Shown: positions 3,744 to 43,358 of the stretch, piece after piece
Layout of the letters: each line of letters opens with the position of its first letter
How positions within the stretch are numbered: the first letter of the stretch is position 1
Assembly (NCBI GenBank): GCA_013426805.1
Contig: JACDZG010000034.1
Span: 1-59,662, forward strand
Source: Chromatiaceae bacterium
GTDB lineage: Bacteria > Pseudomonadota > Gammaproteobacteria > Chromatiales > Chromatiaceae
Reading direction: 5' to 3'
Length of the DNA stretch: 59,662 bases
The notes under the pieces: model-generated
Seen by the model: the letters and a program-made list of their open reading frames with translations, nothing else
Database searches by the model: none
Told to the model about the DNA's origin: nothing
Program-made: the position numbers and the translations under genes

Positions 3744-3979
3744 TCAGGACAGACCGACCGCCTGGTGCATATAGGTCACCGCGGCCGGATCCAGCTTGAG
3801 CTGCGCGGCCAGATCGGCCAGGTAATGCCGCTCGGCATCGCTATCGACGGCGATCGTCATCAAGGACGCGGCATAGAGTTGCGCCGCCACCTGTTGGTTG
3901 GGCACCGGACGCGTGAGGGCGTCCAGGTCGATGGGCTTTTGCATTTCCTCGGCGACGAAAGGATGTCGAGCGCATTCAT
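3744..3979 (-). pseudogene. DUF533 (YebE/TerB-like) protein relic
   Basis: A ribosome site and start (GGAGAG, ATG at 3979) open with MNALDIL, the usual first residues of DUF533 inner-membrane proteins. That frame then runs into unrelated codons. In another frame the DUF533 C-terminal domain follows at once: KPIDLDALTRP, then AAQLYAASLMTIAVDSDAER and LADLAAQLKLDPAAV. The whole middle of the protein, including the membrane segment, is missing and the two ends are out of frame. This is best read as an internal deletion with frameshift. A short ORF of 66 residues remains and could be translated, but no function should be assumed. Confidence 0.65.
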
Positions 3980-4157
3980 GTGAACTCTCCGCTGGGCCGA
4001 TGACCGCAGGCGATTTCCGTCAATCGCCGCGGTCTTGTTATGGATGTTGCAGGGTCCGATCATCCGGCAGGCGCGTTAATCACCATGCCTGGATGCCGAC
4101 TGACGGGCCATGGTACCGCGCCGGGAGGCCGTCGGGGTACCGTCAGGCACCGCACCG

Positions 4158-4928
4158 TCAGGCGTGATCCTCCAGATGAAAACCCAGTGACTCCAAGATA
4201 ACGCCGGTAATGGCTCCACCCAAGAGCCCGCCGAGAAATCCCGGGGGAAGCTCGCGGCGGATTTGCCCCAGCAGATCCTGGCTGGTGCCGTCCAGTGCCA
4301 AGGTCGGCGCGCCCCCAAGCAGCCAGACGCCGGCACCCACCATGGTCGCAATCAGACCAGCCACGACCGCCGCCGACAAACCAGCGGGAAATAACGCGCC
4401 GCCGCGAGTGACCAACCAGCGTTCGGAAATTTCAAACAGGGTTCCCACCAACGCGACCACGCCGGCGGCCAGCACAAAGCTGCCCGCGCGGTGGCCGGTC
4501 GCGGCGACCAACGCGGCCACGCCGCCCCCGGCGATCACCCCCCCGACCAGCCCGGCCAGGGTCCGCGCCAGCGGACGACCGCCGCCACCCGTCATCCAGG
4601 CGAAAAAGCTCCCGCCGGCCAGCCCCGCGATCCCGGCTGCTCCGGCAATCTGGAGCAACCCCGGATCGTGGCCGAACACGATCAGCGACCCGATCGATGC
4701 CAACACGCCAGCCATGGCCCCGGCCAACGCAACCGGCATCGCGCTGTAAAAGGCGGAGGTCGTCATGGCCGCGGCCGCGGCCGCCACCACCGGCGGCTGC
4801 CAACCGGTCAGACCCACGACCAAGAGCACCTGATGCAGCCCCGCGAACAAGGCGCCAAACAGCCCCCCCGCGAGTCCCCAGGCAAACAAGGCCATCACGA
4901 TGGCGGTAAACTGGTCTTTGGTTATCAT
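4158..4928 (-). CDS. Polytopic membrane protein of unknown function
   Basis: A 256-residue protein rich in Ala, Gly and Val with about six to seven hydrophobic segments, for example ALFAWGLAGGLFGALFAG near the N-terminus, several glycine-rich helices such as IAGAAGIAGLAGGSFFAWM, and LLGGAITGVILESLGFH at the C-terminus. The start at MITKDQF is chosen because a GGAG ribosome site lies 7 nt upstream; the longer frame to 5060 adds a non-membrane, arginine-rich stretch. It is divergent from the 5085 gene. I do not recognise the family. The glycine-rich helices could suggest a channel or permease but nothing fixes a substrate. Confidence 0.65.
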   Translation of the reverse strand: MITKDQFTAIVMALFAWGLAGGLFGALFAGLHQVLLVVGLTGWQPPVVAAAAAAMTTSAFYSAMPVALAGAMAGVLASIGSLIVFGHDPGLLQIAGAAGIAGLAGGSFFAWMTGGGGRPLARTLAGLVGGVIAGGGVAALVAATGHRAGSFVLAAGVVALVGTLFEISERWLVTRGGALFPAGLSAAVVAGLIATMVGAGVWLLGGAPTLALDGTSQDLLGQIRRELPPGFLGGLLGGAITGVILESLGFHLEDHA

Positions 4929-5084
4929 ATCGGCTCCGCCGCTGCAGGTGGTGAACACCGCCAGTCTAACAATATCCGGGACGCTGCGACGCGCGGACAC
5001 CGCGCGACCGCAGGCCGCACCGGCAAGCAGGCGACGCCAACCTCCGCTACACTTGCGCATCCCACTGGCAGCTCATTAAGTCCT

Positions 5085-6023
5085 ATGTCCGAGCCCACGG
5101 CCAACGGTACCCGCCGCCTGATTGATGGCGAAATGCGCGTCTACTACGACGGGTACTGGATCAAACACTACGATCCCCCGATCGATACCCTGGAAACGCG
5201 CAAGGGTCTGATCCAGGCACTGACCCGGCGCCTCTTCAATCATGTGGAATTCGGGATCAACATCCCCGGCAACCGCCTCGACGCGGCCCGGGCGGCTTAT
5301 CAAGCCGAAACCGACACCGAGCGCAAGCGCGTCAACGGGGCCATGCTCGCCGGTGCCCTCTTCAACCGCGCCACGGATATCTTCACCTGCCTGGTGGACT
5401 TGCAGAGTTCCGGCATCGAGATCACCCCCGACAACACCCTCATGCGTGAGTGCGGCCAGTGCCTGATGGAGGCCCTTGACTTGGGCAAGATGGTCCGCCA
5501 TCGCGGCGGCGACGAGGGGATCGACGAACTCTGGGGTGAGCCTTTCAAAGCCTACTCGATTCCCATCGAGGCCTTCTATGAAAGCCGTTACCTCAAGATG
5601 GCCATGACCATGAGAGACATCGACCGCATCGGTACCGGCCTGAAAGACGCCTTTTCCAACAGCACCCAGATCACCATGATCGCTCCGCGCGTCGACGCCT
5701 TGGCCGAGGCCGGCAAGCGCAAGTGCGAAATGCTGCGCACCGACCCGGGGATCTTTCGGGTATGGCCAAGTTATGTCGTCGCCCGCGAGCGCCTCTGCAA
5801 CATCCAGCCCCAGTTGCCGACGGCCCCGGACGCGGCAACCATCCGCGAAGCCCTGGAAGGCGCGCGGCTGATCCGCGAAGGAACCGACCTGGTTACCAAC
5901 ATCGTGCGGGCCCGCGTCCCCATGCCCAAGAGCACGCGGGAATTTCTCGACCGGTGTCACCAGTTCCGCCAGGCCCTGAGCCGGGCGAACAGCACGCGGT
6001 CAATACGCCCCCCGAACGCCTGA
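5085..6023 (+). CDS. Conserved-looking cytoplasmic protein, unknown function
   Basis: A 312-residue soluble protein starting MSEPTANGTRRLIDGEMRVYYDGYWIK. The frame is open much further upstream (to 4491), but that part is the shadow of the divergent gene; the ATG at 5085 is the first with protein-like composition after it. There is no signal peptide or clear membrane span. Sequence features include a predicted helical middle with MRECGQCLMEALDLGKMVRH and MTMRDIDRIGTGLKDAF. It ends 15 bases before the convergent response-regulator stop. No family recognised; coding character is strong from composition and length. Confidence 0.65.
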   Translation: MSEPTANGTRRLIDGEMRVYYDGYWIKHYDPPIDTLETRKGLIQALTRRLFNHVEFGINIPGNRLDAARAAYQAETDTERKRVNGAMLAGALFNRATDIFTCLVDLQSSGIEITPDNTLMRECGQCLMEALDLGKMVRHRGGDEGIDELWGEPFKAYSIPIEAFYESRYLKMAMTMRDIDRIGTGLKDAFSNSTQITMIAPRVDALAEAGKRKCEMLRTDPGIFRVWPSYVVARERLCNIQPQLPTAPDAATIREALEGARLIREGTDLVTNIVRARVPMPKSTREFLDRCHQFRQALSRANSTRSIRPPNA

Positions 6024-6037
6024 ATGACCCACCGGGA

Positions 6038-6751
6038 TCAGTACTTGGGCTCGGACTCTCCCGGCAGCACGCAGGTGAGCTGATAGCCGACGCCCCGCAC
6101 CGGCTGAATACACAATTCGGACATCCCGCCCCCCTGAAGTTTGTGCCGGATGTGACTCATGTGGACATCGGTCGCCCGATCGTCCGGGGTCCAATACTCG
6201 CCGCGGGCCAGGTCGGCACGATGCACCGGCTCACCCAGGTGGGCGATCAGATAGGCGAGCAGGGAGGTCTCCCGCGCGGTGAACTCAATCCGCGCGTCGT
6301 CGCCTTCCCGGCTCAGACACCGGTTTGCGGTGTTCAGCCGGAAGGGACCGACCGCGAGCACGGGGAGGGCATCCCGCCCGTGTTGACGGCGGCGCAACAC
6401 CGCCCGCATGCGTGCGCGCAACTCGTCGGGATCGAAGGGCTTCGCCAGATAGTCATCCGCCCCGGCCTCCAGCCCCGCAACCAAATCGGCCTTACCCCCC
6501 CGCCCGGTAATGATGATAAGCCCCGTAGAACGGGTGCGCGCCAACTCGCGGGCGATGTCCATGCCATCCTCGGCCCCCAGATTCAAATCCAGAAGCACCA
6601 GGTCCACACCACCGCGGTTCAACAAATCGATTAATTCCGCTCCGCTGAAGGCCAGGGAAACGTCGAAGCCGTCGCTGATCAGGATACGCTGCAGCCCCTT
6701 GGCCAAGGCCACGTCGTCCTCAACGATGATGATACGCGCGGGTTCAGGCAT
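6038..6751 (-). CDS. OmpR/PhoB-family response regulator
   Basis: A 237-residue two-component response regulator. The receiver domain (residues 1-120) has the acidic pair E11-D12, the phospho-acceptor D55 in LVLLDLNLGAEDG, T82 in IIITGRG and K104 in YLAKPFDPDE. The C-terminal winged helix (about 135-230) shows FTARETSLLAYLIAHLGEPV, DVHMSHIRHKL and RGVGYQL, typical of OmpR-type DNA binding. The start is placed at MPEPARIIIVEDD; the longer frame upstream lacks domain character. It is divergent from the large hybrid kinase that starts at 6906, and the 154 bases between would hold both promoters. That layout makes the kinase the natural partner, though this is inference. Confidence 0.93.
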   Translation of the reverse strand: MPEPARIIIVEDDVALAKGLQRILISDGFDVSLAFSGAELIDLLNRGGVDLVLLDLNLGAEDGMDIARELARTRSTGLIIITGRGGKADLVAGLEAGADDYLAKPFDPDELRARMRAVLRRRQHGRDALPVLAVGPFRLNTANRCLSREGDDARIEFTARETSLLAYLIAHLGEPVHRADLARGEYWTPDDRATDVHMSHIRHKLQGGGMSELCIQPVRGVGYQLTCVLPGESEPKY

Positions 6752-6905
6752 GATAGATCGCACAAACAGCCGGTGGGGAAACGCAAGAGCCTGCCTTCCT
6801 GGCGTCCGTTGCCAATCGCGCAGCGGGCAGCGGCGCGTTGTAAGCATCCGGAAACCACCGGATCGTCGCGATACTCTAACAAAATTAGCGGGGCCTGGAT
6901 CTCCC

Positions 6906-9900
6906 ATGACGGCGTTCCCTTTCCCCACCGTGCAAATCGCGCGTCGACGACTCCCGGCGCGCTTGAACGACCTCGCCCGGGTGGGCGGACTCGCGGCCGC
7001 GGCCGTCGCCGTTAGCCTCGTGTATCTGCCGGTCGGCTACGGACTGGACCTGGTCTTCGGGTCGGTCTTTGCCATGTTGGCCATCCACTGGTTGGGGACC
7101 GGCGCCGGCGTTCTGGTAGCTGCCATCGGCGGGGCATACACGATCATACTCTGGCACCACCCCTACGCCTGGCTGATTCTGATCGCCGAGGCCCTGTGCG
7201 TGGGTGTGCTGCACCGCTATCTCCGGCCGCAGGGTGAAGTGTTGCCCCTGGCTGCCGCGGACGGCATCTACTGGTTGATTCTCGGCATGCCCCTGGTGGC
7301 CCTGAGCTACGGCGGACCGCTTGCCATGACCGGCACCGAGGTGACCCTGGTGGCGTTCAAACAGGCCATCAACGGAGTACTCAACGCGGCGCTCGCCGGC
7401 GCGATCGTACTCGGCATCCAGTTGCTGCGGCGGCGGGCCGTCACGGTACCGATCGGCGAGATTCTGTTCACCTCCATGGTACTGGCGGTCCTGGTCCCGG
7501 CCTTGAGCGTCTCGATCTTTCAGATCCGCCGCCTGACCGACGCCATGGAAGCCGACGCGTCCGACACCTTGACCCTGGCCAATCGACTCGCCGCCGCGCG
7601 TTTCAACCGGCCCGACCCACCGCCGACCCTCGCCGCGGCGCGGGCCGAACTGCCGGAGCTCATCGAGCAGATCCGTTGGCTCTTGCCCCAGGCCGGCGGG
7701 ATCACGATGACCCTCTTACCGGCTCCAGATCACCCCCGATCGTCGGCACCCGACCACCGGGTGACGCAACAATCGGCAGCTGAGCCAAATCTTCAGCCGG
7801 CAACCGGCCCACGGCTATCGCGCATGGCGCGTTTCCGTAAAGGCCGATTCCAGCAGCGCGCCGACCTGACCCTGGCGGGTGTACCGATCCAACTGGTCGC
7901 GGATCTCACCGCAACCAGGGCGGTGGAAGCCTTGCAGCGCGTCCAGCTTAGCGTGTTCCGGCAACTCAGTACCATCCTGGTACTCGCCCTGATCGGTGCG
8001 TTCGCCTTCAGCCGGCGCATCGGCCGCCCCATTGCCACCCTGGCCGCTATTGCCAGCCGCCTGCCCGCCCAGCTCGACCGACCGGAGCATGACGCCCAGC
8101 CGCGGCCCAGCCGGCTGCGGGAGATCGCTGAATTCAGCGCCGCCTTCACACGGATGGAAGTGGCCCTGCGGACAGACATCAAGGCCCGGCAGGAAAGTGA
8201 ACGCGAACTACGGCACAGCGAGAGACGCCTCGCGCGCGCCCAACGGGCGGGGCGCGTTGGCGTTTGGGAGTTGAACACAACGACCAAGACCGCCTGGTTC
8301 TCCGACGAGGCCCTGCGTATCTTCGAGTTCCCGCCGGATCAAGCCCTGGTGGATTACGCGGTCGGCGCCGCCCTGGTCCACCCGGAGGATCTGCCGGGCA
8401 TGGAAGCCGCCATCACCCAGGCACTCGCCGAGCGGCGCCCTTACCACTTGGTCCTGCGTTTGCGATTCGCTGCGAACCGGGTGAAGCACACGAGTGTCGA
8501 CGGCGAACCAGTCGACGATGCGGGGATCATCCGCATCATCGGCACCATCCGTGACATCACCGCAGAAACGTTGGCGGAGCACGTGCTGGCGCAGAGCGAG
8601 GCACGCTTCCGGGCGGTCTTCGAGCAGGCGCCGATCGGCATGGCCATCGTCGGACCCGACCGGCGCCCGCAATTCACCAATCCCGCCTTGGAGCGAATTC
8701 TCGGACGCGACGCGGCGACCATCCAGACGCTGCGTTTCGACGACTTCACCCATCCGGAAGATCTCGACGCCGACCTGTGTCTGTTCCAGGAACTGCTGGC
8801 CGGCAAGCGTGCCAGCTATCGCATCACAAAGCGCTATCTGCGACCCGACGGCACCCTGGTGTGGGGTGACCTCAGCGTGGCCCTGCTGCCGGCGCGCGAT
8901 GGCGGGGCACCGCTGCCACTCGGCCTGGTGCAGAACATCACCGAACAGCGCCTCGCCGAGCAGGCGCGGGCCGAAGCGGAACAGGCGCTGCAACGTTACA
9001 GCGCGAAGCTCGAAGCATTTTCGGAGCTGACCACCCGCTACCAGCCGCCCGCCCAGCACCTGCAAGCACTCCTGAGTTACGGGTGCCAGGCATTCGGGGT
9101 CCAACTCGCGGCCCTCGCCGAGGTTCGCGACAAGCACTATCGGCTGCTCGTCGCGGTGGGTGACGCGGCGACCGACCGCAGTGGCCCGGCGGGACCGGTC
9201 CGCGTCGACGACCTGGCAGCCGACCCATCGCCCGTGCCGCGACATCCGGTCTTCGGCGCGGACCTCGCGTTCCTGACCCGCATGGACTTGACCTGGAGCG
9301 ACGCCGAGGGCGTTGTTCACCACGGTCTCCTCGACCTCGCCGACCGCACGACCGCGCCGCATCTGGGTCAGCCGGAACAACAGATTCTGACGCTGATGGC
9401 TCAGCGCATCAGCGCCAACCTCCGCGAACAGGCGGTGCTCGATGGCCTCCTGCAAGCGCGCCAGCGCGAGGTCATCGGTCACCTGGCGGCCGGTGTGGCC
9501 CACGACTTCAACAACGTGCTGGGAGTGATCAGCAGCAATCTGCACTACCTGGGGCAGCTGCTGTCGGCCGCGGCGGACACCGGTGACGCGCGGGAAGTGC
9601 TCGCCGAGACCGAGGCCGCGATCGCTCAAGCCAAGGTGGTCACCTCGGGCCTGCTCTCGCTGGGACGCGGCGAGGAAGTCAGTGTCGGTCCCTGTCCGCT
9701 CGGCGAGTTGGCGCAAGACTTCGCACCCGTGATCCAGCGCCTGCTGCCGCCGCGGATTGCGCTGACCCTGGACCTGACGCCGGGAATCGTTGTGTTATCG
9801 AACTCCGCATTACTCCAAGTCGCCCTCCTCAACCTCGCACTCAACGCGCGCGATGCCATGGGTACCGCCGGGCAGTTGACGATCCGCGTCACCGCCCAAC

Positions 9901-10613
9901 CGACAGCGGGCATTGCGGTAACCGACCCGGCCGCTGCATACCATGAGGGTTACGGGGAGTTGTGTGTGGTCGATACCGGGGTGGGCATGACGCCGGCCGT
10001 CCAGGCCCGTCTGTTCGAGCCGCTGTTCTCCACCAAGGCACGCGGTCGCGGAACCGGTCTCGGGCTCTTCATGGTGCAGGAGTTCGCCCGACGCAGCCAC
10101 GGCGCGGTCCAGATTACCTCGGAACCGGGCGCGGGGACCCGCGTCCAACTCCGGCTCCCGTTAGCGCCGCGCTACCGGACCGCGGCCCATGGCGCCAAAC
10201 GGGGTCGCGTCAGGTCGAGCGCCGCCCGCCCCCCAAGCCCATCCGCCGGACCGCCCGAGATTCTATTGGTGGACGACGAACCCCTGGTCTGCCAAACGCT
10301 ACGCCGTACCTTGGAGCAGGCCGGTTACCGCCTCCTGGAAGCCGTGGACGGGGCAGACGCGCTTGACCGCCTGACCGACGAACCGGCCATTGCCCTGGTG
10401 CTGTCGGACATTGCCATGCCGCGCATGGACGGCCTGGCACTTTACCGCACCCTCTGCCGCAACCGACCGGAACTCCCGGTGATCCTGATGAGCGGCGACC
10501 CCTTCGCGACCGCGGACGCGCGCGCCCGGAACCCGACCCTGCGTATTCTGAGCAAACCGGTCGACACCCACGCGCTCGTTGCCGTGCTCCGCGGCATCCT
10601 GGGAGACGTCTAA
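6906..10613 (+). CDS. Membrane hybrid sensor histidine kinase (two PAS, GAF-like, HisKA, HATPase, receiver)
   Basis: A 1235-residue hybrid kinase. Residues 15-160 form a multi-helix MASE1-like membrane sensor. A further span lies near 195 and another near 350, followed by a HAMP-like linker. PAS domains occupy about 440-560 and 565-690 (QAPIGMAIVGPDRRPQFTNP), then a GAF-like region about 705-850. The HisKA box is GVAHDFNNVLG with the phospho-His at 866. The ATPase N and G boxes are NLALNARDAMG and GRGTGLGLFMVQEF. A C-terminal receiver (1115-1235) carries D1168 in LSDIAMPRMDG and the Lys in LSKPVD. The start is the ATG at 6906, giving an N-terminus that runs straight into the membrane domain. 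It ends with no output DNA-binding domain and probably signals through the divergent OmpR-type regulator. Confidence 0.92.
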   Translation: MTAFPFPTVQIARRRLPARLNDLARVGGLAAAAVAVSLVYLPVGYGLDLVFGSVFAMLAIHWLGTGAGVLVAAIGGAYTIILWHHPYAWLILIAEALCVGVLHRYLRPQGEVLPLAAADGIYWLILGMPLVALSYGGPLAMTGTEVTLVAFKQAINGVLNAALAGAIVLGIQLLRRRAVTVPIGEILFTSMVLAVLVPALSVSIFQIRRLTDAMEADASDTLTLANRLAAARFNRPDPPPTLAAARAELPELIEQIRWLLPQAGGITMTLLPAPDHPRSSAPDHRVTQQSAAEPNLQPATGPRLSRMARFRKGRFQQRADLTLAGVPIQLVADLTATRAVEALQRVQLSVFRQLSTILVLALIGAFAFSRRIGRPIATLAAIASRLPAQLDRPEHDAQPRPSRLREIAEFSAAFTRMEVALRTDIKARQESERELRHSERRLARAQRAGRVGVWELNTTTKTAWFSDEALRIFEFPPDQALVDYAVGAALVHPEDLPGMEAAITQALAERRPYHLVLRLRFAANRVKHTSVDGEPVDDAGIIRIIGTIRDITAETLAEHVLAQSEARFRAVFEQAPIGMAIVGPDRRPQFTNPALERILGRDAATIQTLRFDDFTHPEDLDADLCLFQELLAGKRASYRITKRYLRPDGTLVWGDLSVALLPARDGGAPLPLGLVQNITEQRLAEQARAEAEQALQRYSAKLEAFSELTTRYQPPAQHLQALLSYGCQAFGVQLAALAEVRDKHYRLLVAVGDAATDRSGPAGPVRVDDLAADPSPVPRHPVFGADLAFLTRMDLTWSDAEGVVHHGLLDLADRTTAPHLGQPEQQILTLMAQRISANLREQAVLDGLLQARQREVIGHLAAGVAHDFNNVLGVISSNLHYLGQLLSAAADTGDAREVLAETEAAIAQAKVVTSGLLSLGRGEEVSVGPCPLGELAQDFAPVIQRLLPPRIALTLDLTPGIVVLSNSALLQVALLNLALNARDAMGTAGQLTIRVTAQPTAGIAVTDPAAAYHEGYGELCVVDTGVGMTPAVQARLFEPLFSTKARGRGTGLGLFMVQEFARRSHGAVQITSEPGAGTRVQLRLPLAPRYRTAAHGAKRGRVRSSAARPPSPSAGPPEILLVDDEPLVCQTLRRTLEQAGYRLLEAVDGADALDRLTDEPAIALVLSDIAMPRMDGLALYRTLCRNRPELPVILMSGDPFATADARARNPTLRILSKPVDTHALVAVLRGILGDV

Positions 10614-36235: not shown

Positions 36236-37678
36236 TTAGGCGTCAACGGGGTCGTCTCCGCGCGTGTTGACCCGCCGCTTTCGCACCGCAGGGCGCGGGG
36301 GCACCTCGGCAGCCGGCTCCGGCGCTTCCACCCGCGCGTGCAGCGTGCCCGCGGCCAACCGCGCGGCGATCCGGGTGCCGGGCGGTGCCTGATCGGGATC
36401 ACGCAGGATGGCGCCGTCCGGCAACCGGGTGACGATGGCATAGCCGCGCGCCAAGGTGGCCAGCGGGCTGCGGGCATCCAGGCCGGTGATCGCCCGCCCC
36501 AGCCGCTCGTGCCGCTTGGCCAAGGCGTGCGACTGGACCCAGCGCAAGCGGCGCACCAGATCATTCAGGCCCGCGGCGGCCCGTTCCATCCGGCGCTCGG
36601 GTGAGACCGCCAGCAAGGCGATCCGCCGCGGTTCCAGCCGCGACCGGGCAGCGCCCAGGCGGCGGCTGATGGTCTCGGCCAGCCGCCGCTCCAACTCGTC
36701 CAGCCGCTGCGCCCGCCGCTCCAGACGCGCGGCCGGGTGCAGCAGGGCCAACTGGCGCAGCACCGCCGCCAGGCGCTGGTTGGCGCCATCGAGCACGCGG
36801 CCCTCCAGATGCAGCAGACGCGCCTGCAGGGCGGCGACCCGCTGAGCAAGATGGACGGCCGCCGGCGCCACCAACTCGGCGGCCGCCGAGGGCGTCGCGC
36901 CGCGCCGGTCTGCGGCCAGATCGGCGATGGTCACATCGATCTCATGCCCGACGCCGGTGACCACCGGGATCGCGGAGGCGCGGATCGCGCGGGCCAGGGC
37001 TTCATCGTTGAAGGCGGCCAGATCCTCGATCGACCCGCCGCCGCGGGCGAGAATCAGCACATCGCACTCGGCCCGCCGGTTGGCGGCGGCGAGCGCCTGG
37101 ATCAGCGTCGCAGCCGCTCCGGCACCCTGGACCTGGGCCGGGTAGATCAACACCGGCAGCGCCGGACAGCGCCGCCCGAGCACCGTCAGCAAATCGTGCA
37201 CCGCCGCGCCGGAGGGCGACGTGATGAGCCCCACCTGGCGCGGGAAGGCCGGCAGTGGGCGCTTGGCCGCCTCGGCGAACAGCCCCTCGGCAGCCAATCG
37301 GCGCTTGAGCCGCTCCAGTTCCAGGCGCAAGGCGCCCTCCCCGCCCGGCTCCAGGTGCTCCACCACGAGTTGGAAATCGCCGCGCGGCTCGTAGAGCGTC
37401 ACCCGTGCCCGCGCCAGCACCTGCTGACCGTTCTCCGGCCGGAAACCGAGCAGCAGGCGCTTGGCGCGAAACATGGCGCAGCGCACCTGGCTGGCCTCAT
37501 CTTTGAGACTGAAATAGATGTGACCGGAGGCCGGCTGGGCGAGGTTCGAAATCTCCCCGCGGACCCACAGCAGCGGGAAACTGCCGTCGAGCACCGCCCG
37601 CACCTCGCTGGTCAGGCGCGAGATGCTGTAGATGTCGCGGTTGAAGTCCAAGGCCAGGCCGGGGGGGTCGGGCGTCAT
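36236..37678 (-). CDS. xseA: Exodeoxyribonuclease VII large subunit
   Basis: The catalytic subunit that, with XseB, degrades single-stranded DNA. The 480-residue protein has the N-terminal OB-fold (YSISRLTSEVRAVLDGSFPL, then WVRGEISNLAQPASGHIYFS), the catalytic domain with GLITSPSGAAVHDLL, ILARGGGSIEDLAAFN, and GHEIDVTIADLAADRRGATP, then the long coiled-coil arm (residues 270-380) and the C-terminal FARGYAIV-like segment (LARGYAIVTRLPDG). The start at 37678 overlaps the stop of the preceding relic gene as ATGA; an ATG four codons earlier is possible. xseB is not in this window. Confidence 0.95.
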   Translation of the reverse strand: MTPDPPGLALDFNRDIYSISRLTSEVRAVLDGSFPLLWVRGEISNLAQPASGHIYFSLKDEASQVRCAMFRAKRLLLGFRPENGQQVLARARVTLYEPRGDFQLVVEHLEPGGEGALRLELERLKRRLAAEGLFAEAAKRPLPAFPRQVGLITSPSGAAVHDLLTVLGRRCPALPVLIYPAQVQGAGAAATLIQALAAANRRAECDVLILARGGGSIEDLAAFNDEALARAIRASAIPVVTGVGHEIDVTIADLAADRRGATPSAAAELVAPAAVHLAQRVAALQARLLHLEGRVLDGANQRLAAVLRQLALLHPAARLERRAQRLDELERRLAETISRRLGAARSRLEPRRIALLAVSPERRMERAAAGLNDLVRRLRWVQSHALAKRHERLGRAITGLDARSPLATLARGYAIVTRLPDGAILRDPDQAPPGTRIAARLAAGTLHARVEAPEPAAEVPPRPAVRKRRVNTRGDDPVDA

Positions 37679-38013
37679 TTCCAGATGCACTCGACCGGAT
37701 AGGCGCTGAACAGAGGGTCCGCGCTCAGTAGCGGACAGCCCAAGACAATGGCCTGGGCGATCAGCAGCCGGTCGAACGGATCGCGGTGATTGAACTCCTT
37801 GAAGTCTTCCAGCGGCGCGTCGAAATCGGGCGCCATCCAGACCTGCCCCCGCGCGGAGCCGGGCTGACGTGGTCCGTCGGTTACCTTAGAGCCTCCAGTG
37901 CGGCCGGACTGCCGCTCCTTCTGCTCCAGGAACTGCACGAAGTCCAACACTGTGCCAAGTGTGGGCTCCGGCAGTTGCTTGAGATGCTCGTAGACGAGAT
38001 CTGCCGTCGTCAT
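37675..38013 (-). pseudogene. Antitoxin (DUF2281/VapB-like) fused in frame to the tail of a PIN toxin
   Basis: The 112-residue frame is a chimera. Residues 1-73 are a complete small antitoxin of the DUF2281 type: MTTADLVYEHLKQLPEPTLG, then LDFVQFLEQKERQ, ending in MAPDFDAPLEDFKEF, the usual C-terminus. The remaining 39 residues, NHRDPFDRLLIAQAIVLGCP then LLSADPLFSAYPVECIW, match the last third of a PIN-domain (VapC-like) ribonuclease, with the conserved DPFDRLL and SADP motifs. The first two-thirds of the toxin, with its catalytic acids, are missing. A single deletion that joined the two genes of a VapBC-like operon explains this. Its stop overlaps the xseA start. Confidence 0.75.
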
Positions 38014-38089
38014 GCTTTGAACTCCGGATCGATTGACTGTTGGTGCAGCCTGCGTGAACGCACGTCATCACCCTGGCCATGCAAAGGAT

Positions 38090-38446
38090 CTAGGCTGCGG
38101 CGCGGATATCGGCATGGATCAGGATTTCATCGTACAGTGTGGACAACCCACCGCCCGTGCCAAGCTCCAACAGCCCAAGATCGACCAGACTGGTCACATC
38201 CGTATGCACATTCGTATAGTCCCGGCCCAGCGCGTTGGCGAGTTGCCGAATATTGAGCCCGTCATGGGCCGCGACATGGCGCAGCAGGTCGAGTCGCTTT
38301 TCGGTGATCGTCGAGAACAGCTCGTGCAGACTGCCGAAGGCGAGTCTGGGTGTCACCGCTTCCCCGGTCTCGACCGCGTGCCATACTTCGGCACAGGCTC
38401 GCAACGCGGCATCTGGCCGCAACACGCTAATCTCGATTTTCTTCAT
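38090..38446 (-). CDS. HTH antitoxin of the HVO_A0114/TumA type
   Basis: A 118-residue winged-helix DNA-binding protein: MKKIEISVLRPDAALRACAE at the start, the helical EKRLDLLRHVAAHDGLNIRQ and LANALGRDYTNVHTDVTSLV recognition region, then DLGLLELGTGG. This matches the HVO_A0114-type putative DNA-binding family, which serves as antitoxin to TumE-like toxins. The start is the ATG that overlaps the toxin stop by one base (TAATG), with GGAG 6 bases upstream. Translation is thus coupled to the preceding toxin gene, so the pair is in toxin-first order. Confidence 0.75.
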   Translation of the reverse strand: MKKIEISVLRPDAALRACAEVWHAVETGEAVTPRLAFGSLHELFSTITEKRLDLLRHVAAHDGLNIRQLANALGRDYTNVHTDVTSLVDLGLLELGTGGGLSTLYDEILIHADIRAAA

Positions 38447-38733
38447 TACCATCTCCAGCCCGCGAGACGGGCGCAATCCTGTCGGAAATCTGCCAATAGC
38501 TGTTCGATCGAAACGAAGGGGTATGGCTCCTCCAGAATTCTGTAGTGTCGATGGTCGCCCTTGCCCGACTCGTTGTCGTAACGCACGAGACAGTCGCCGG
38601 GTCGCCCACAGTAGAAGCGGTATTTGAGACCGTGCGGCCGTTCACTTGTCGGTGTCGGCAGCGCCCAGACGACCATCTCGCAAACGAGATCGCCCTGTCG
38701 GTCCTTGTAGTGGAAGACTTGCCGCGCTCGCAT
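38446..38733 (-). CDS. TumE-like (DUF6516) toxin
   Basis: A 95-residue protein, MRARQVFHYKDRQGDLVCEM at the N-terminus, then WALPTPTSERPHGLKYRF, CLVRYDNESGKGDHRHY, and EEPYPFVSIEQLLADF. The LVRYDNE.GKGDHRH core is the hallmark of the DUF6516/TumE toxin family. The gene lies directly upstream of, and overlaps, the HTH antitoxin gene, as in the known TumE-TumA modules. The mode of toxicity cannot be read from sequence. Both genes look intact. Confidence 0.78.
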   Translation of the reverse strand: MRARQVFHYKDRQGDLVCEMVVWALPTPTSERPHGLKYRFYCGRPGDCLVRYDNESGKGDHRHYRILEEPYPFVSIEQLLADFRQDCARLAGWRW

Positions 38734-39051: not shown

Positions 39052-40427
39052 TCAGAAATCCTTGGAGACGTAGCCGTCGGCTGTCGGCGGATCGGGAAAG
39101 TCCAATCCGATACCAAAGTCGTCGTGAACGTCAGTGCGACATAACACTGACATGTAGTCCGTATGCGGACGTCGAACCGCGCCTGCAATGCGGGGCCAGT
39201 AATTTTGTAAGGCATGCGGTGTTTGCAAGGCGATATGCCTTAGCTCCTCGGCACCAGAACGGCGACTCTCGATATCACCAGAATCCAGGAATACGATCAG
39301 TCGCGCTACTGCCCGGATATCGCCGATTTTTCCAAGATCTCTAATATTACATTCTTCCACTTGAGCCCAATTCGCCCATCTAGTGTCCCCCAGACGCACG
39401 AGCGCGGTAGCTGCGGTGCGACGGGAATCGAGGGAAGAAGACACAAGTTGCCTGATGAGAGGCTCTATGGCACGCCTGTCCCCGAGCTCGCCTAGTGCCT
39501 CGGCGGCCTCGGGGTCGAATATTCGTAGCGCCCGGATCAGGGGCTCGACTGTTCGTGAATCACCCTGTTTCGCGAGTACAATCGCCGCCCATCCGCTAAT
39601 CTCGCCGTCCGCGGATTCCAGCGCCTCCACGAGCGCCTGGTTTGCCTCGGAATCGCCCAGTCTCGCGAGCGCTGTTACCACAGCCACACCTAACCCCCAT
39701 TGTACTGGCCGCCGGCCGTGCAAGGCGTTCGCCAGAGGGCTAACCGCACGCAAGTCCCCGAGTTGTCCCAGCGCCGTAGCGGCGGCAATGCGGTACCCAT
39801 CAGCGCTATTGTTGAGGGCGCGGATTAACGGTCCGACAGCGCGTTTATCCGCTAGCTTCCCCAACGCGTAGAGAGCCTCAGGCCAAAGTCGGTGGTCTCC
39901 ATTTTCCAACCCGCTTTCCAACCCGTGGATTAGCGGCATAACGGCACGCGGATCGCCTAGCCGGCCTAGAGCCTCGGCAGCTACAGACTGGATACCCGAG
40001 TCGTAGTTCCCGAGTGTCTGGATCAACGGCTCAACGGCGCGCAAATCCCCCAGGCCCCCGAGAGTTCTCGCTGCAACGACACGGCAATATCTATCGGAAT
40101 CTGCCAACGCGCGGATGAGCCCCTCAACATGACTGCGTTGTTGGAGCGATGATCGCTATAACCTCTGAGACCGTCAATCAGCGCATCGATTACCGCATGG
40201 CGATCAAGACGTTCGAGAGCTCGAGCAGCGGCAGGCGCGGCTACAGGAAAGTCCAATGCCCGCACTAGCGACGGTATTGCGTCCGAGTCGTTGAGTCGCG
40301 TCAGGGCGCTCGCAGACGCCTCAGCTTTGCGTCTGAATCGATTTTTCTGAGCCGGGCCAGACATTCGTCCGCGCGATTCAGCTTCAATCCTCCAGCAGTG
40401 GTACCAGAGCTTCAACGAATTTAACAT
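39052..40427 (-). pseudogene. HEAT-repeat (PBS lyase-like) protein split by a frameshift
   Basis: Two overlapping frames make one protein of about 455 residues. The first (40427 to about 40130) has HEAT units such as IPSLVRALDFPVAAPAAARA and VIDALIDGLRG. The second (from about 40135 to 39052) continues with VEGLIRALADSDRYCRVVAA and at least seven further units, e.g. AVEPLIQTLGN, AVGPLIRALNNSADGYRIAA, AVSPLANALHG, IEPLIRQLVSS, with the recurring ALGxLGDxRAV. The shift occurs near 40122-40135. The C-terminal 60 residues are not repeat-like. Proteins of this fold act as scaffolds or as bilin lyases. Here it directly follows a radical SAM gene by 5 bases, so it belongs to that cluster. A sequencing error is an alternative to true decay. 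Confidence 0.75.
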
Positions 40428-40432
40428 GTTGT

Positions 40433-41518
40433 CTATCTCACCACCGGATCATCAAAAGTAACGTTCAGATATCCACAGGCCGCTTGGAGAATTTTCTCGG
40501 CCCGCGCCTTTGCCTCCCGGCATTCGATTTGTGCGACTTGATTAAGGCTTTGAGCCCGTCCGTGAAGCCAGGCCCGGCAGCCGCCCCCACAAATGTAACG
40601 CAAGTCACAAGTTCTGCACTCCGACCTAGACTGCACCGAGTCCACTGCGCATCCGCTCAGGGCCGCAAACCCGGCGCCTTCGATTACCGCCCTCAGCCCG
40701 TCCGTAACGACGTTTCCCAAATGGTGTCGGCGGTGAGTATACGCATAGCATGGAAACGCATCGCCGGAGACTTCGACGTGGAGGTTCTCACCAAGGCCAC
40801 AACTGGCAAGCGGCCTAAATCCGCCTTCGATCCGATCCATCGGATCCTCATCACCGGTGAGCCTGGCCCGAATCGGGGCGGACTTCCACTCGCTCGCTCG
40901 GCCCAGGGGTAGGACGCGACGAATGCGGATGTACGAAACCCCGAGTCGCCGCGCTAGGTCGCGCACGGCAACCTCCGCTTCGCTGGCGCGGTCGGTGGCG
41001 CCGATGGTCGCGGCTAAGCATAGCTCAGCTGCGCCAGGCATTCGGGCCGCGTCATCCTGATAAGCGTCAAGGTTGCGAACCACCGCCGCATAGCTCCCCG
41101 ATCCACGGCGGGCGTCGTGCTGAGTTTGGTCACCGTCTACGCTGACGACAAGGCGATCTACGGCCAGGGCGATCCGCTGGAGCACTTGGGTATCCAGCAG
41201 CAGGGCTAGGTTGCTCCGCAGGACGAGGCCCATAGGCGCGGCCCAACCGCGCGCCTGAGTCAGTGCGTCCAGCATGGCGTCGCGCTCGCGGTGAAGCAGC
41301 GGCTCGCCGCCAGTCAGTTCGACCTGGCGGAAGCCGGCCTCTTTGGCCGCCCGAAGCAGTCGCGTCAGGTCGGCGACCGGCAGGTCCGGCTGCCCCCGCC
41401 CCTGGCCATCGGCCCGGGCGTAACAATTGGGTGCACCGAAGCTGACACCGCCAAGTGAGGTGCAGGTAGAGGTTGTTGAGCCGCCGCGTCGGTGGATACA
41501 GCTCCCGCCACAGTGCAT
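40433..41518 (-). pseudogene. Radical SAM/SPASM protein 2 with a 1-base frameshift in the cluster-binding loop
   Basis: The frame from 41427 down encodes a radical SAM domain without its first two ligands: CYARADGQGR, the GGE motif VELTGGEPLLH, LRSNLALL, VVSVDGDQ, then a SPASM end with Cys in LASCGLGENLHVEVSGDAFP, CYAY, and CRTCDLRYICGGGCRAWLHG. The missing start, PTRRLNNLYLHLTWRCQLRC then T, lies immediately upstream in another frame. Removing one A at 41427/41428 joins them and restores C-x3-C-x2-C. The stop of radical SAM protein 1 falls just before. Homologues with a SPASM domain mostly modify ribosomal peptides or other proteins. No start codon is apparent for the restored frame. Confidence 0.75.
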
Positions 41519-42364
41519 TCAGTGAAGCCTCACCGGGTAGATGGCGCCTTGGGGGTCGATGACGAGGAACTGGCCCGGGCAGTCGCGGAAGGTGCAGACC
41601 TGGCCCTCGCCGCTGCCGAGCGAGCGGCAGACTTGGTCCAGGGAGGGGATGGCGAGCTCGCGCCGGTGGTGGATGTAATGGTCGGCCAGGGCGCACAGTA
41701 GACGCCCGTAGTCGGCTGGCGGCAGTGTGTGCCGGGAGTCGCCGCCCGCGAGCGGGGGCAGGGCGGGGTGGATGGAGAAACCCAGTTGCTCGTTGTTGAA
41801 AAAGTCGAAGACCTCGCGCCAGCGCGGGGCACTGGCGCGAGTGAAGGTGGCGATGCAGCCGGGTTGGACGCCGTGCGCCTGGGCGCGGCGGATGCCAGCC
41901 AGCGTCCGGGCGAAATAGCCGGGGCCGCGCTGGCCGTCGGTGATCGGTTCGGGTCCGTCGAGGCTGGTGCCGATCTCGACCTGGTGCTCGCGAAACAGTC
42001 GGCAGAGGTCGTCGTCGAGCAGCCAGAGGTTGCTTTGGATGGCGAGACGCAGTCGCTCCGCACCCAGGCGGTCGCGCAGCCCCGTGAACAATTGGCGGAG
42101 CCGCGCGGGGCCGGCCATCAGGGGCTCGCCGCCGTGGAGGGTCACGCTGACCTTGGTCATGCCGGTCTCGGCGGCGATGCGGGCGACGAACTCAACGGCG
42201 GCGTCCGCGACTGCCTCGGACATGATCGGCCCTTGGTGCGGGCCGAAGCAGTAGCCGCACCGGGCCGGACAGGCGAGCGACGGGAGGATCATGAAGTGGG
42301 GCTGCGGTGGGTTGGCACCCTGGGGTTCGATCGCGTACAGGTCGGGCATGGGCGCGGAAGGCAT
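41519..42364 (-). CDS. Radical SAM protein 1, lacking the SPASM end
   Basis: A 281-residue radical SAM enzyme. The [4Fe-4S] ligands are C32-x3-C36-x2-C39 in LACPARCGYCFGPH. The GGE motif is VSVTLHGGEPLMAG, followed by LRLAIQSNLWLLDDD and the barrel strands IGTSLDGPEPITDGQRG. Near the C-terminus, VCTFRDCPGQFLVIDPQGAI then YPV marks the point where a SPASM domain (CxxxxxxG..) would begin; the frame instead ends RLH. The protein therefore looks truncated by a deletion. The start is set at 42364, behind AGGGA; the ATG at 42430 lies within the upstream gene. It resembles peptide-maturing radical SAM enzymes with LHGGEPL. Substrate unknown. Confidence 0.8.
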   Translation of the reverse strand: MPSAPMPDLYAIEPQGANPPQPHFMILPSLACPARCGYCFGPHQGPIMSEAVADAAVEFVARIAAETGMTKVSVTLHGGEPLMAGPARLRQLFTGLRDRLGAERLRLAIQSNLWLLDDDLCRLFREHQVEIGTSLDGPEPITDGQRGPGYFARTLAGIRRAQAHGVQPGCIATFTRASAPRWREVFDFFNNEQLGFSIHPALPPLAGGDSRHTLPPADYGRLLCALADHYIHHRRELAIPSLDQVCRSLGSGEGQVCTFRDCPGQFLVIDPQGAIYPVRLH

Positions 42365-42405
42365 TCGGGTGGTCCCTGCAAGTGGTGCCGATCGAGAGTC
42401 TACAA

Positions 42406-43358
42406 TCACTGTCCGGTTTTCGGAGCCCACTCGAGCATCGGCTCGCGGCGATGGTCCGTGGGCTTGTCGTCGTTGACCGGCTCGCGGTCATCGTCCACGG
42501 GTAGGTCGACAGACTGGCGATCGGGATCCGCGGCCTCGTGGTGCAACTCGACCGACTGGCGGGCATCCTCCGAGGTCTCGTAGGTGATGACCAGGCGCGG
42601 ATGCGAGTCTGGATCGGTATTGTCGTTCGAGCTGAAAGCGACCGCCCGGTAAGGCTGTTCGTGCAATAGCTTCAGGGCCAGTCCGAGGCTCATGTCGTTG
42701 TGATCGAGGGCATCCTTCAGCAGCGGTGTGACATCGATCTGGTAGTCCTGAATCGGGTTGGTGCTGGCCTGGACTATCACCTGGTTGCTGTCGGTTGTCG
42801 TCGGCTGGGTGTTCCAGGAGATGTCCTGCTCCGACCAGGGCGAGATGATCCGCTGGACGACCAGCGCGTTGGACCCGCTCAGGGTTGAGTGCTGTGCATT
42901 CTTGTTGGTATTGGCAACGCGTTTGTCCTGGTAGAGACCCAGCACCACGCGCAGGATCGTGGCAGTTGGCGGGAGTCCGGCCAGATCGCACGCAAAGAAG
43001 CTCCGCGTGACTCCCGGTCCGTCGCCTTGGCCGTACCAGGTCCAGGCCCGCGCATCGATAAAGTAATAGGACCCGCGCGGCTCACTCGGCCGGGAACTCC
43101 AGGCGTGTCCATCCTGGCACACATCGTTTCCTTGGCCTTGGTCATACACCCGACCACCGCGCGATCTGCACGGTCGTCGGTCCGCACAGCGGACCCTACA
43201 GGTCACGGTGTTACCGTAGGGTCCGCTGAGCGGACCGTGCGCGGCCAGCCGGAACGATGATCAAGGCCGTTTCCTTCGAGTGTCATTGTCTGTTCCGCGG
43301 CATCGCTCTGGAACACACAACAGGCGAGAACACCGGCCGCACATGCAGAATAATTCAT
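42406..43358 (-). pseudogene. Secreted DNRLRE-domain protein, interrupted by a small mobile element
   Basis: The gene opens at 43358 behind AGGAAG with an export signal (MNYSACAAGVLACCVFQSDA). After TMTLEGN it is broken at 43276-43125 by a 134-bp repeat element flanked by CGTTTCCTT on both sides. Removing the element and one flank joins the frame exactly as LEGNDVCQDGHAWSSRPSEP. The rest is a DNRLRE domain: TATILRVVLGLYQD, SALVVQ-like NALVVQRIISPWSEQD, ISWNTQPTT, YQIDVTPLLKDALDH and HPRLVITYE. The last 55 residues are an acidic, low-complexity tail with four R[QE][SP][VM] units. The element supplies a TGA that overlaps a GTG (43203-43206), so a re-initiated product is conceivable. It is first in the minus-strand radical SAM/HEAT cluster. 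Confidence 0.8.
43134..43267 (-). mobile_element. Small non-autonomous element inserted in the DNRLRE gene (copy 2)
   Basis: The ends are inverted: GGCCTTGGTCAT at the left and, read on the other strand, GGCCTTGATCAT at the right. The 9-bp CGTTTCCTT occurs at both borders (43125-43133 and 43268-43276) as a target-site duplication; 8 bp if one C is counted as element. Inside are the inverted blocks CGGTCCGCACAGCGGACC (43178-43195) and GGTCCGCTGAGCGGACCG. It is too small for a transposase, so it is MITE-like. Confidence 0.8.

Follow-up and report, generated by a model that had tools for sequence, protein, structure and literature searches.

Which protein does a radical S-adenosylmethionine (SAM) enzyme modify when its nearest partner is a HEAT-repeat protein? 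The question is raised by a locus of a Chromatiaceae bacterium (assembly GCA_013426805.1), where a stretch of 59,662 nucleotides (contig JACDZG010000034.1; the window) carries a DNRLRE protein gene, two radical SAM pieces and a HEAT-repeat gene, all on the minus strand between 39052 and 43358. A sequence-only reading had described this arrangement correctly in part and had gone on to take the pieces for two radical SAM genes, one of them with SPASM cysteines, that act on the DNRLRE protein with the HEAT protein as a carrier or scaffold. Comparison with related genomes points to a different answer. The window probably holds a decayed copy of a protein-borne system akin to those that make ribosomally synthesized and post-translationally modified peptides (RiPPs), in which one double enzyme would modify the C-terminal tail of the HEAT protein; this tail would be the core, and the protein that bears it an oversized leader or scaffold. 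Such a system would comprise a two-half radical SAM/SPASM maturase, one to three tailed HEAT solenoids and, often, an AAA_28-type P-loop ATPase.

The double radical SAM/SPASM enzyme

In related genomes, the enzyme is a single polypeptide with two radical SAM halves. Stop-free double frames of 786-871 amino acids (aa) are present in six of them: Lamprocystis purpurea DSM 4197 (locus L012, NZ_KB902540.1, enzyme at 7998-10430; 810 aa), the Anaerolineales genome G575 (L013, JAFGNH010000037.1; 786 aa), G150 from the window's own genus (L014; 855 aa), G846 (804 aa), G812 (871 aa) and G1117 (858 aa). (A further entry, G145, is presumably the same sequence as L. purpurea NZ_KB902540.1.) Each half carries SPASM cysteines in the intact relatives. 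All 21 cysteines of cluster-type motifs (11 in the first half and 10 in the second) are kept in four of the five aligned proteins, and the fifth, from G150, has lost two SPASM-type cysteines in its second half (L014, 9284-11851). Radical_SAM is matched twice by Pfam in 4/4 proteins, and SPASM twice in three of these and once in that of G150.

What, then, are the two pieces in the window? When the L. purpurea protein is mapped on it, residues 2-280, 448-499 and 483-802 are covered, the first and last segments in one common frame with one stop between them and the short middle one in another frame. The missing residues, 281-447 in L. purpurea numbering, are the first SPASM and the linker, and the first piece (piece 1) is a first half without these parts. 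The second half does contain the SPASM noted before, and its frame is broken around the CxxxCxxC region. Judged by this mapping, the two pieces are the remains of one gene; the single long frames in the relatives, together with the mapping, rule out two separate radical SAM genes. A loss of about 167 aa would hardly be a base-calling error, and because these residues are absent and the frames are broken, the window's copy is, on its sequence, a pseudogene.

The first half belongs to a family known by name. TIGR04083 (an NCBIfam model of 376 positions, described as a peptide-modifying radical SAM, with a curated cut-off of 300 bits) is passed by the first half in 4/4 proteins (L012, 365 bits; L013, 399; L014, 333; L039, 459), and piece 1 of the window, at 223 bits, stays below it. 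At genome level, the cut-off was exceeded in three of four genomes tested; it was also exceeded in a single member of a 14-genome control set, which may be Escherichia coli, Bacteroides ihuae or Methanosarcina acetivorans.

The enzyme is rare, patchy and often decayed. A search of the window's order with piece 1 (210 genomes, E <= 1e-40) gave three matches, all in the window's genus, where 3/8 genomes match (G000, G145 and G150) and where piece 1 is 89% identical to G150 and 76% to G145, the matches lying within frames of 857 and 845 aa, respectively. Further samples were searched with the best two candidates per genome scored: among 369 genomes of the window's class, only the window's own had the enzyme; among 396 of the class of G575, five had it; and among 400 of the phylum of G575, there were five, of which three were new (G1117, G1196 and G1202). 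In the order of G1117 (82 genomes, up to 12 candidates each), the enzyme was found in G1117 itself. Counting the window, this gives 11 genomes with at least part of the enzyme. A plasmid search matched 22 records, but in none of them was 80% of the query covered at a single place; the 20 listed covered 38-42% of it at 24.7-27.2% identity, and most of those with a named feature were annotated as anaerobic sulfatase maturase. A scan of viral contigs yielded four distant radical SAM matches (20-29% identity).

The HEAT protein, its tail and the ATPase

A HEAT protein with a conserved tail lies beside the enzyme in nine of the 11 enzyme-bearing genomes (the window, L. purpurea, G150, G575, G730, G812, G1117, G1196 and G1202). 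Its start is within a few bases of the end of the enzyme gene, or overlaps it, in L012, L013 and L014; in G846, the tailed HEAT gene is on another contig than the enzyme. The co-occurrence expected from the window alone is thus partly borne out: enzyme and HEAT gene are linked in distant genomes, whereas the DNRLRE gene is adjacent in none of the seven other genomes tested and the radical SAM genes are fused. The HEAT protein could well be a carrier, as had been supposed, but its tail suggests that it is more than a scaffold, and makes it the better substrate candidate.

The tailed HEAT proteins range from 260 to 981 aa (the 351 aa of the window's represent a broken frame), and despite this spread the C-terminus is constant in kind, as in the window (LCRTDVHDDFGIGLDFPDPP...), L. 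purpurea (DCVSTHEDKGIGIDFPDNP...), G575 (NCDTFNHTDVGIGLDFPL), G730 (DCSYLHDDRYAKWGGVDFPL), G1117 (DCSRPHTDTELGVEFPL) and G846 (DCHRDEMYHLDTGIGLPFP). Eleven genomes supplied 15 tails for comparison, and in every case the DNA confirmed a stop at the end of the tail. The motif H-x-D is found in all 15, two or more times in 13 of them, and is usually followed by a short stretch ending in Phe. C-x(1-7)-H-x-D, that is, a Cys 2-8 residues before H-x-D, occurs in 13/15. Within the final 45 residues, there is a single Cys in 12 tails, a pair in that of L. purpurea, and none in the other two. (One of the Cys-free tails, in G1196, is extended by a repeated AVAAKA-like stretch.)

Does the tail Cys follow the state of the enzyme? 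It is present alongside a stop-free double enzyme in L. purpurea, G575, G846, G812 and G1117, and absent in G150, where two SPASM cysteines are lost, and in G1196, where the second half is missing. On the other hand, it is kept with a damaged enzyme in the window, where the gene is broken, in G1202, which lacks the second half, and in G730, where stops interrupt the frame. An association of the tail Cys with an intact second half is thus suggestive at most. The loss of SPASM-type cysteines from the second half in G150 coincides with a Cys-free tail on the neighboring HEAT protein, possibly a sign that one half and the residue it targets decay together.

As a background for the tail, the last 45 residues were checked in 175 open frames from 13 sequences, none of them overlapping and each 150 aa or longer: H-x-D was present in 24, and C-x(1-7)-H-x-D in 15, of which 11 were tailed HEAT proteins and four were other frames. 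A profile of nine tails (A2), run on eight enzyme-bearing genomes with every first-look candidate scored, returned ten matches, namely the nine training tails and one new one, on a HEAT protein in G846 (E 1.3e-9). A profile of eleven tails (A3), run on the 396 genomes of the class of G575 with at most the 15 best candidates scored in each, found tails in five (G575, G730, G812, G846 and G945), four of which also bear the enzyme. In the fifth, G945, the tail is at the start of a 9.6-kb contig, followed by the ATPase, and the enzyme may lie off the contig. Profile matches in the window fall at 39094-39264 and 39091-39264, the window's tail itself being a training row, and among 114 genomes sampled from the window's family, G000 and G150 had tails. 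A further match, in G012 (E 6.6e-5), was rejected as false, being a His-rich frame of 165 aa in which no HEAT repeats are visible.

The ATPase recurs at the locus as well, and had no place in the cluster as first described. It is an AAA_28-type P-loop protein (PF13521, E 6.6e-20 and 4.8e-14), and its gene or a remnant of it lies near the locus in seven of 12 genomes, the 11 enzyme-bearing ones and G945 (G730, G812, G706, G1117, G945, G150 and the window). In G812, it is 1.9 kb beyond the tailed HEAT gene; the copy in G150 is broken. In G1117, the order is enzyme, tailed HEAT, ATPase, tailed HEAT, ATPase, a duplication of the HEAT-ATPase unit in which the second ATPase copy is frame-broken. The window's remnant was not detected with two intact AAA_28 queries. 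No ATPase was seen in the stretches read from G575, G846, G1196 and G1202, or in L. purpurea, whose contig extends 0.9 kb beyond the HEAT gene.

What the enzyme may modify

How could such a system work? The HEAT solenoid would dock on the enzyme and present its tail, on which one or both halves would then act. The bond formed, the order of the steps and the role of the ATPase are conjecture: the likeliest product would be a thioether that links the tail Cys to a residue close by, perhaps the Asp of H-x-D. An Asp is favored as the partner by the example of PapB, a related maturase reported to cross-link Cys-Xn-Asp with n = 0-6 (PMC9413430); several, not all, of the Cys-Asp spacings in the tails are within this range. 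The ATPase might then use or sense the modified tail, which could either remain attached to the HEAT protein, as a modified loop, or be released by cleavage.

Several observations weigh against the tail as the substrate of a double enzyme. The enzyme is broken or partial in 5/11 genomes: the window; G730 (L038), where the frame shared by both halves is interrupted between them by five stops (about 4510-4700), suggesting either an insertion or decay; G706, which has the second half only, on a 5-kb contig; and G1196 and G1202 (L060 and L061), which have the first half only, directly before the HEAT gene. These broken and partial enzymes indicate that the two halves are not obligatory. The tails of G150 and G1196 lack the Cys, the tail region of L. 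purpurea has a second one, and G730 and G1202 keep theirs without an intact double enzyme. One HEAT protein in G812 (7089-7826) has no such tail, and G706, with its second half and ATPase, yields none in a whole-genome profile search. Pfam finds no RRE (RiPP recognition element)- or PqqD-like match in two inter-domain linkers, and an AlphaFold model of the double enzyme, built from two sequences, was uninformative (predicted local distance difference test score, pLDDT, 43) and was left unused. Finally, the hypergeometric P of 2.5e-8 for the overlap of tail and enzyme among the 396 genomes overstates the case, because each of the four genomes with both tail and enzyme had contributed to the A3 training tails; the independent evidence consists of the A2 match in G846 and of the absences, which come from best-candidate scoring (2 or at most 15 per genome).

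The leading alternative, which we consider unlikely though worth taking seriously, is that the tail is a metal-binding site formed by its His, Asp and Cys residues, and that the enzyme modifies something else, aided by the HEAT protein in a chaperone or docking role. It is the H-x-D that is strictly invariant (15/15) and repeated in 13 tails, and two tails manage without any Cys. Against this reading, the tail accompanies the enzyme even where the two are unlinked, in G846, and the HEAT gene directly follows the enzyme in L012, L013 and L014; both facts are, however, compatible with a metal site, too. Somewhat less probable still is a short, unannotated precursor peptide near the enzyme. TIGR04083 is described as acting on peptides, and in the relatives' loci, open reading frames were listed from 80 aa upward only. 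However, the abutting or overlapping genes in L012 and L013 leave no room downstream of the enzyme, and the HEAT tail is already core-like.

A conversion of Cys to formylglycine, as by an anaerobic sulfatase maturase, is improbable. The best match of the first half among solved structures is indeed such an enzyme (anSME 4k36/4k37, E 3e-45), but the maturase model TIGR03942 is matched at 136-205 bits (four proteins, both halves together) against a cut-off of 349, and the tails are without C-x-P-S-R, the sulfatase motif. Hardly any weight can be given to the presumably secreted DNRLRE protein with its acidic tail, the substrate first proposed: its gene adjoins the radical SAM gene in the window and overlaps it by 25 bp, but is adjacent in none of the seven other enzyme genomes tested, has no match in G575 and is interrupted by a repeat in the window.

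If the HEAT tail is indeed the substrate, radical SAM maturases can use folded solenoid repeat proteins as leaders, and modified peptides would have a carrier of a new kind; genome mining for short precursor peptides would overlook this class of substrates. One polypeptide would hold two maturases for one tail, and the TIGR04083 family would gain a testable substrate. Going further, we can tentatively imagine a new class of protein-borne product, in which the HEAT solenoid is its own giant leader, a two-headed enzyme makes the Cys/His/Asp tail into a cross-linked macrocycle or a cofactor-like metal site, and the AAA_28 ATPase is partner or target. On present sampling, its members would come from the window's genus and the phylum of G575, with decay in several genomes. 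For the window itself, what is left is a decayed copy, with the DNRLRE gene as a likely bystander.

Neighboring features and comparison with known systems

The features of the window are collected in the table. The DNRLRE gene looks like an incidental neighbor outside the conserved system. Adjacency was tested in seven of the 10 other enzyme-bearing genomes (G1117, G1196 and G1202 left out): DNRLRE matches are on other contigs in five (G145, G846, G730, G812 and G706) and 46 kb away in G150. (The enzyme contigs of G706, 5 kb, and G730, 9 kb, are short, and adjacency beyond their ends is possible.) By reading, the gene starts with an ATG at 43358, and a palindromic repeat separates this start, with its putative signal peptide, from the gene body. 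The repeat, about 135 bp long, folds as one long hairpin with inverted ends GGCCTT...AAGGCC, is flanked by an apparent target-site duplication of 9 bp, and is found in at least 40 places of the 7.6-Mb genome (40 of 407 candidates were scored).

Features of the locus and its surroundings in the window (MITE, miniature inverted-repeat transposable element)
Feature	Position	Strand	Evidence
Remains of first radical SAM half, TIGR04083-like	41519-42430	-	TIGR04083 E 4.3e-66, 223 bits; L. purpurea residues 2-280
Remains of second radical SAM/SPASM half, same gene (on mapping)	40433-41518	-	Radical_SAM and SPASM matches
Junction with about 167 residues missing	41528-41534	-	L. purpurea residues 281-447 unmatched in window
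HEAT_PBS-repeat protein, two overlapping frames	39052-40107 and 40023-40427	-	HEAT matches; gene split
HEAT C-terminal tail HTDYMSVLCRTDVHDDFGIGLDFPDPPTADGYVSKDF, proposed core/substrate	39055-39165	-	Tail alignment and profile matches
AAA_28-type ATPase C-terminus remnant, 24 aa	38819-38890	-	83% identity to G150 remnant, E 1.4e-7 (search of 13 sequences)
DNRLRE/CBM96 gene body with acidic tail	42406-43206	-	NF033679 E 1.4e-22
Palindromic MITE-like repeat in 5' part of DNRLRE gene	about 43134-43269	-	CGTTTCCTT on both sides
TumE-like	38446-38733	-	Family match
HVO_A0114-like winged helix	38090-38476	-	Family match
DUF2281 frame with weak PIN-like end	37675-38013	-	Family match

The locus is flanked by a guaB-like gene (43513, plus strand) and an xseA-like gene (36236-37690, minus strand), both named from reading their translations. 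The last three rows of the table form a toxin-antitoxin-like cluster of three frames (37675-38733, minus strand). Elsewhere, in L066, a ribonucleotide reductase-like frame (3795-7406) has an apparent internal intein, again by reading of the translation.

How does the system compare with those already known? No report joining a radical SAM/SPASM enzyme and a HEAT protein was found in the literature searched, which included few subscription papers, and the excerpt available of a paper on conflict systems (PMC7159879) is without such a pair. The earlier statement that no named system has this combination thus stands for the literature searched. The first half falls into a named family; neither the double enzyme nor a tail borne by a HEAT protein is described in that literature, and we regard the system as a new variant of radical SAM/SPASM peptide maturation. 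A scan of five proteins with PADLOC gave only partial radical SAM, HEAT/ARM and AAA matches, and the best stretches for viperin (pVip) cover about half of the 257-262-position model, within the second radical SAM core, which falls short of that family.

TIGR04083 is among the closest known families, its cut-off being exceeded by the first half of the intact relatives; its model, however, covers one half, which here shares a polypeptide with a second radical SAM/SPASM half, and the gene is linked to that of a HEAT protein. Among the best 25 families per protein, other full-length maturase families stay below their cut-offs; the one other model to exceed its own is TIGR04085, for the SPASM domain. 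HxsB of the His-Xaa-Ser system (HxsB/HxsC) reaches 100-125 of 370 bits in the four proteins. The maturases of ranthipeptides, SCIFF peptides and sactipeptides match both halves, but far below cut-off (four proteins, both halves together): PapB, 117-168 of 340 bits; the SCIFF maturase, 89-141 of 425; and StsB, 80-136 of 625. By sequence, the solved relatives of the second half, all partial, are 5wgg, 8wm2, SkfB (6efn) and 5v1q, of which we take 5wgg to be CteB and 5v1q to be SuiB. PapB has in common with the present system the Cys-Xn-Asp spacing of several tails, within the range of n = 0-6; the precursors of PapB, SCIFF and StsB enzymes are short peptides, whereas the candidate precursor here is a HEAT protein of 260-981 aa.

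On the side of the carrier, the likeness is to proteusins and other large-leader RiPPs, which also have a C-terminal core on a large carrier; proteusin precursors, as an excerpt of PMC10858898 has it, defy the notion of a short, unstructured leader. The carrier here, on the other hand, consists of HEAT repeats in Pfam, with no nitrile-hydratase-like or Nif11 leader among the matches. The repeats themselves are of the family found in HEAT_PBS proteins of the CpcE/CpcF type (NF058502, E 1.7e-36, 126 bits, below the 330-bit cut-off), but those are named bilin lyase subunits, unlike the HEAT proteins described here.

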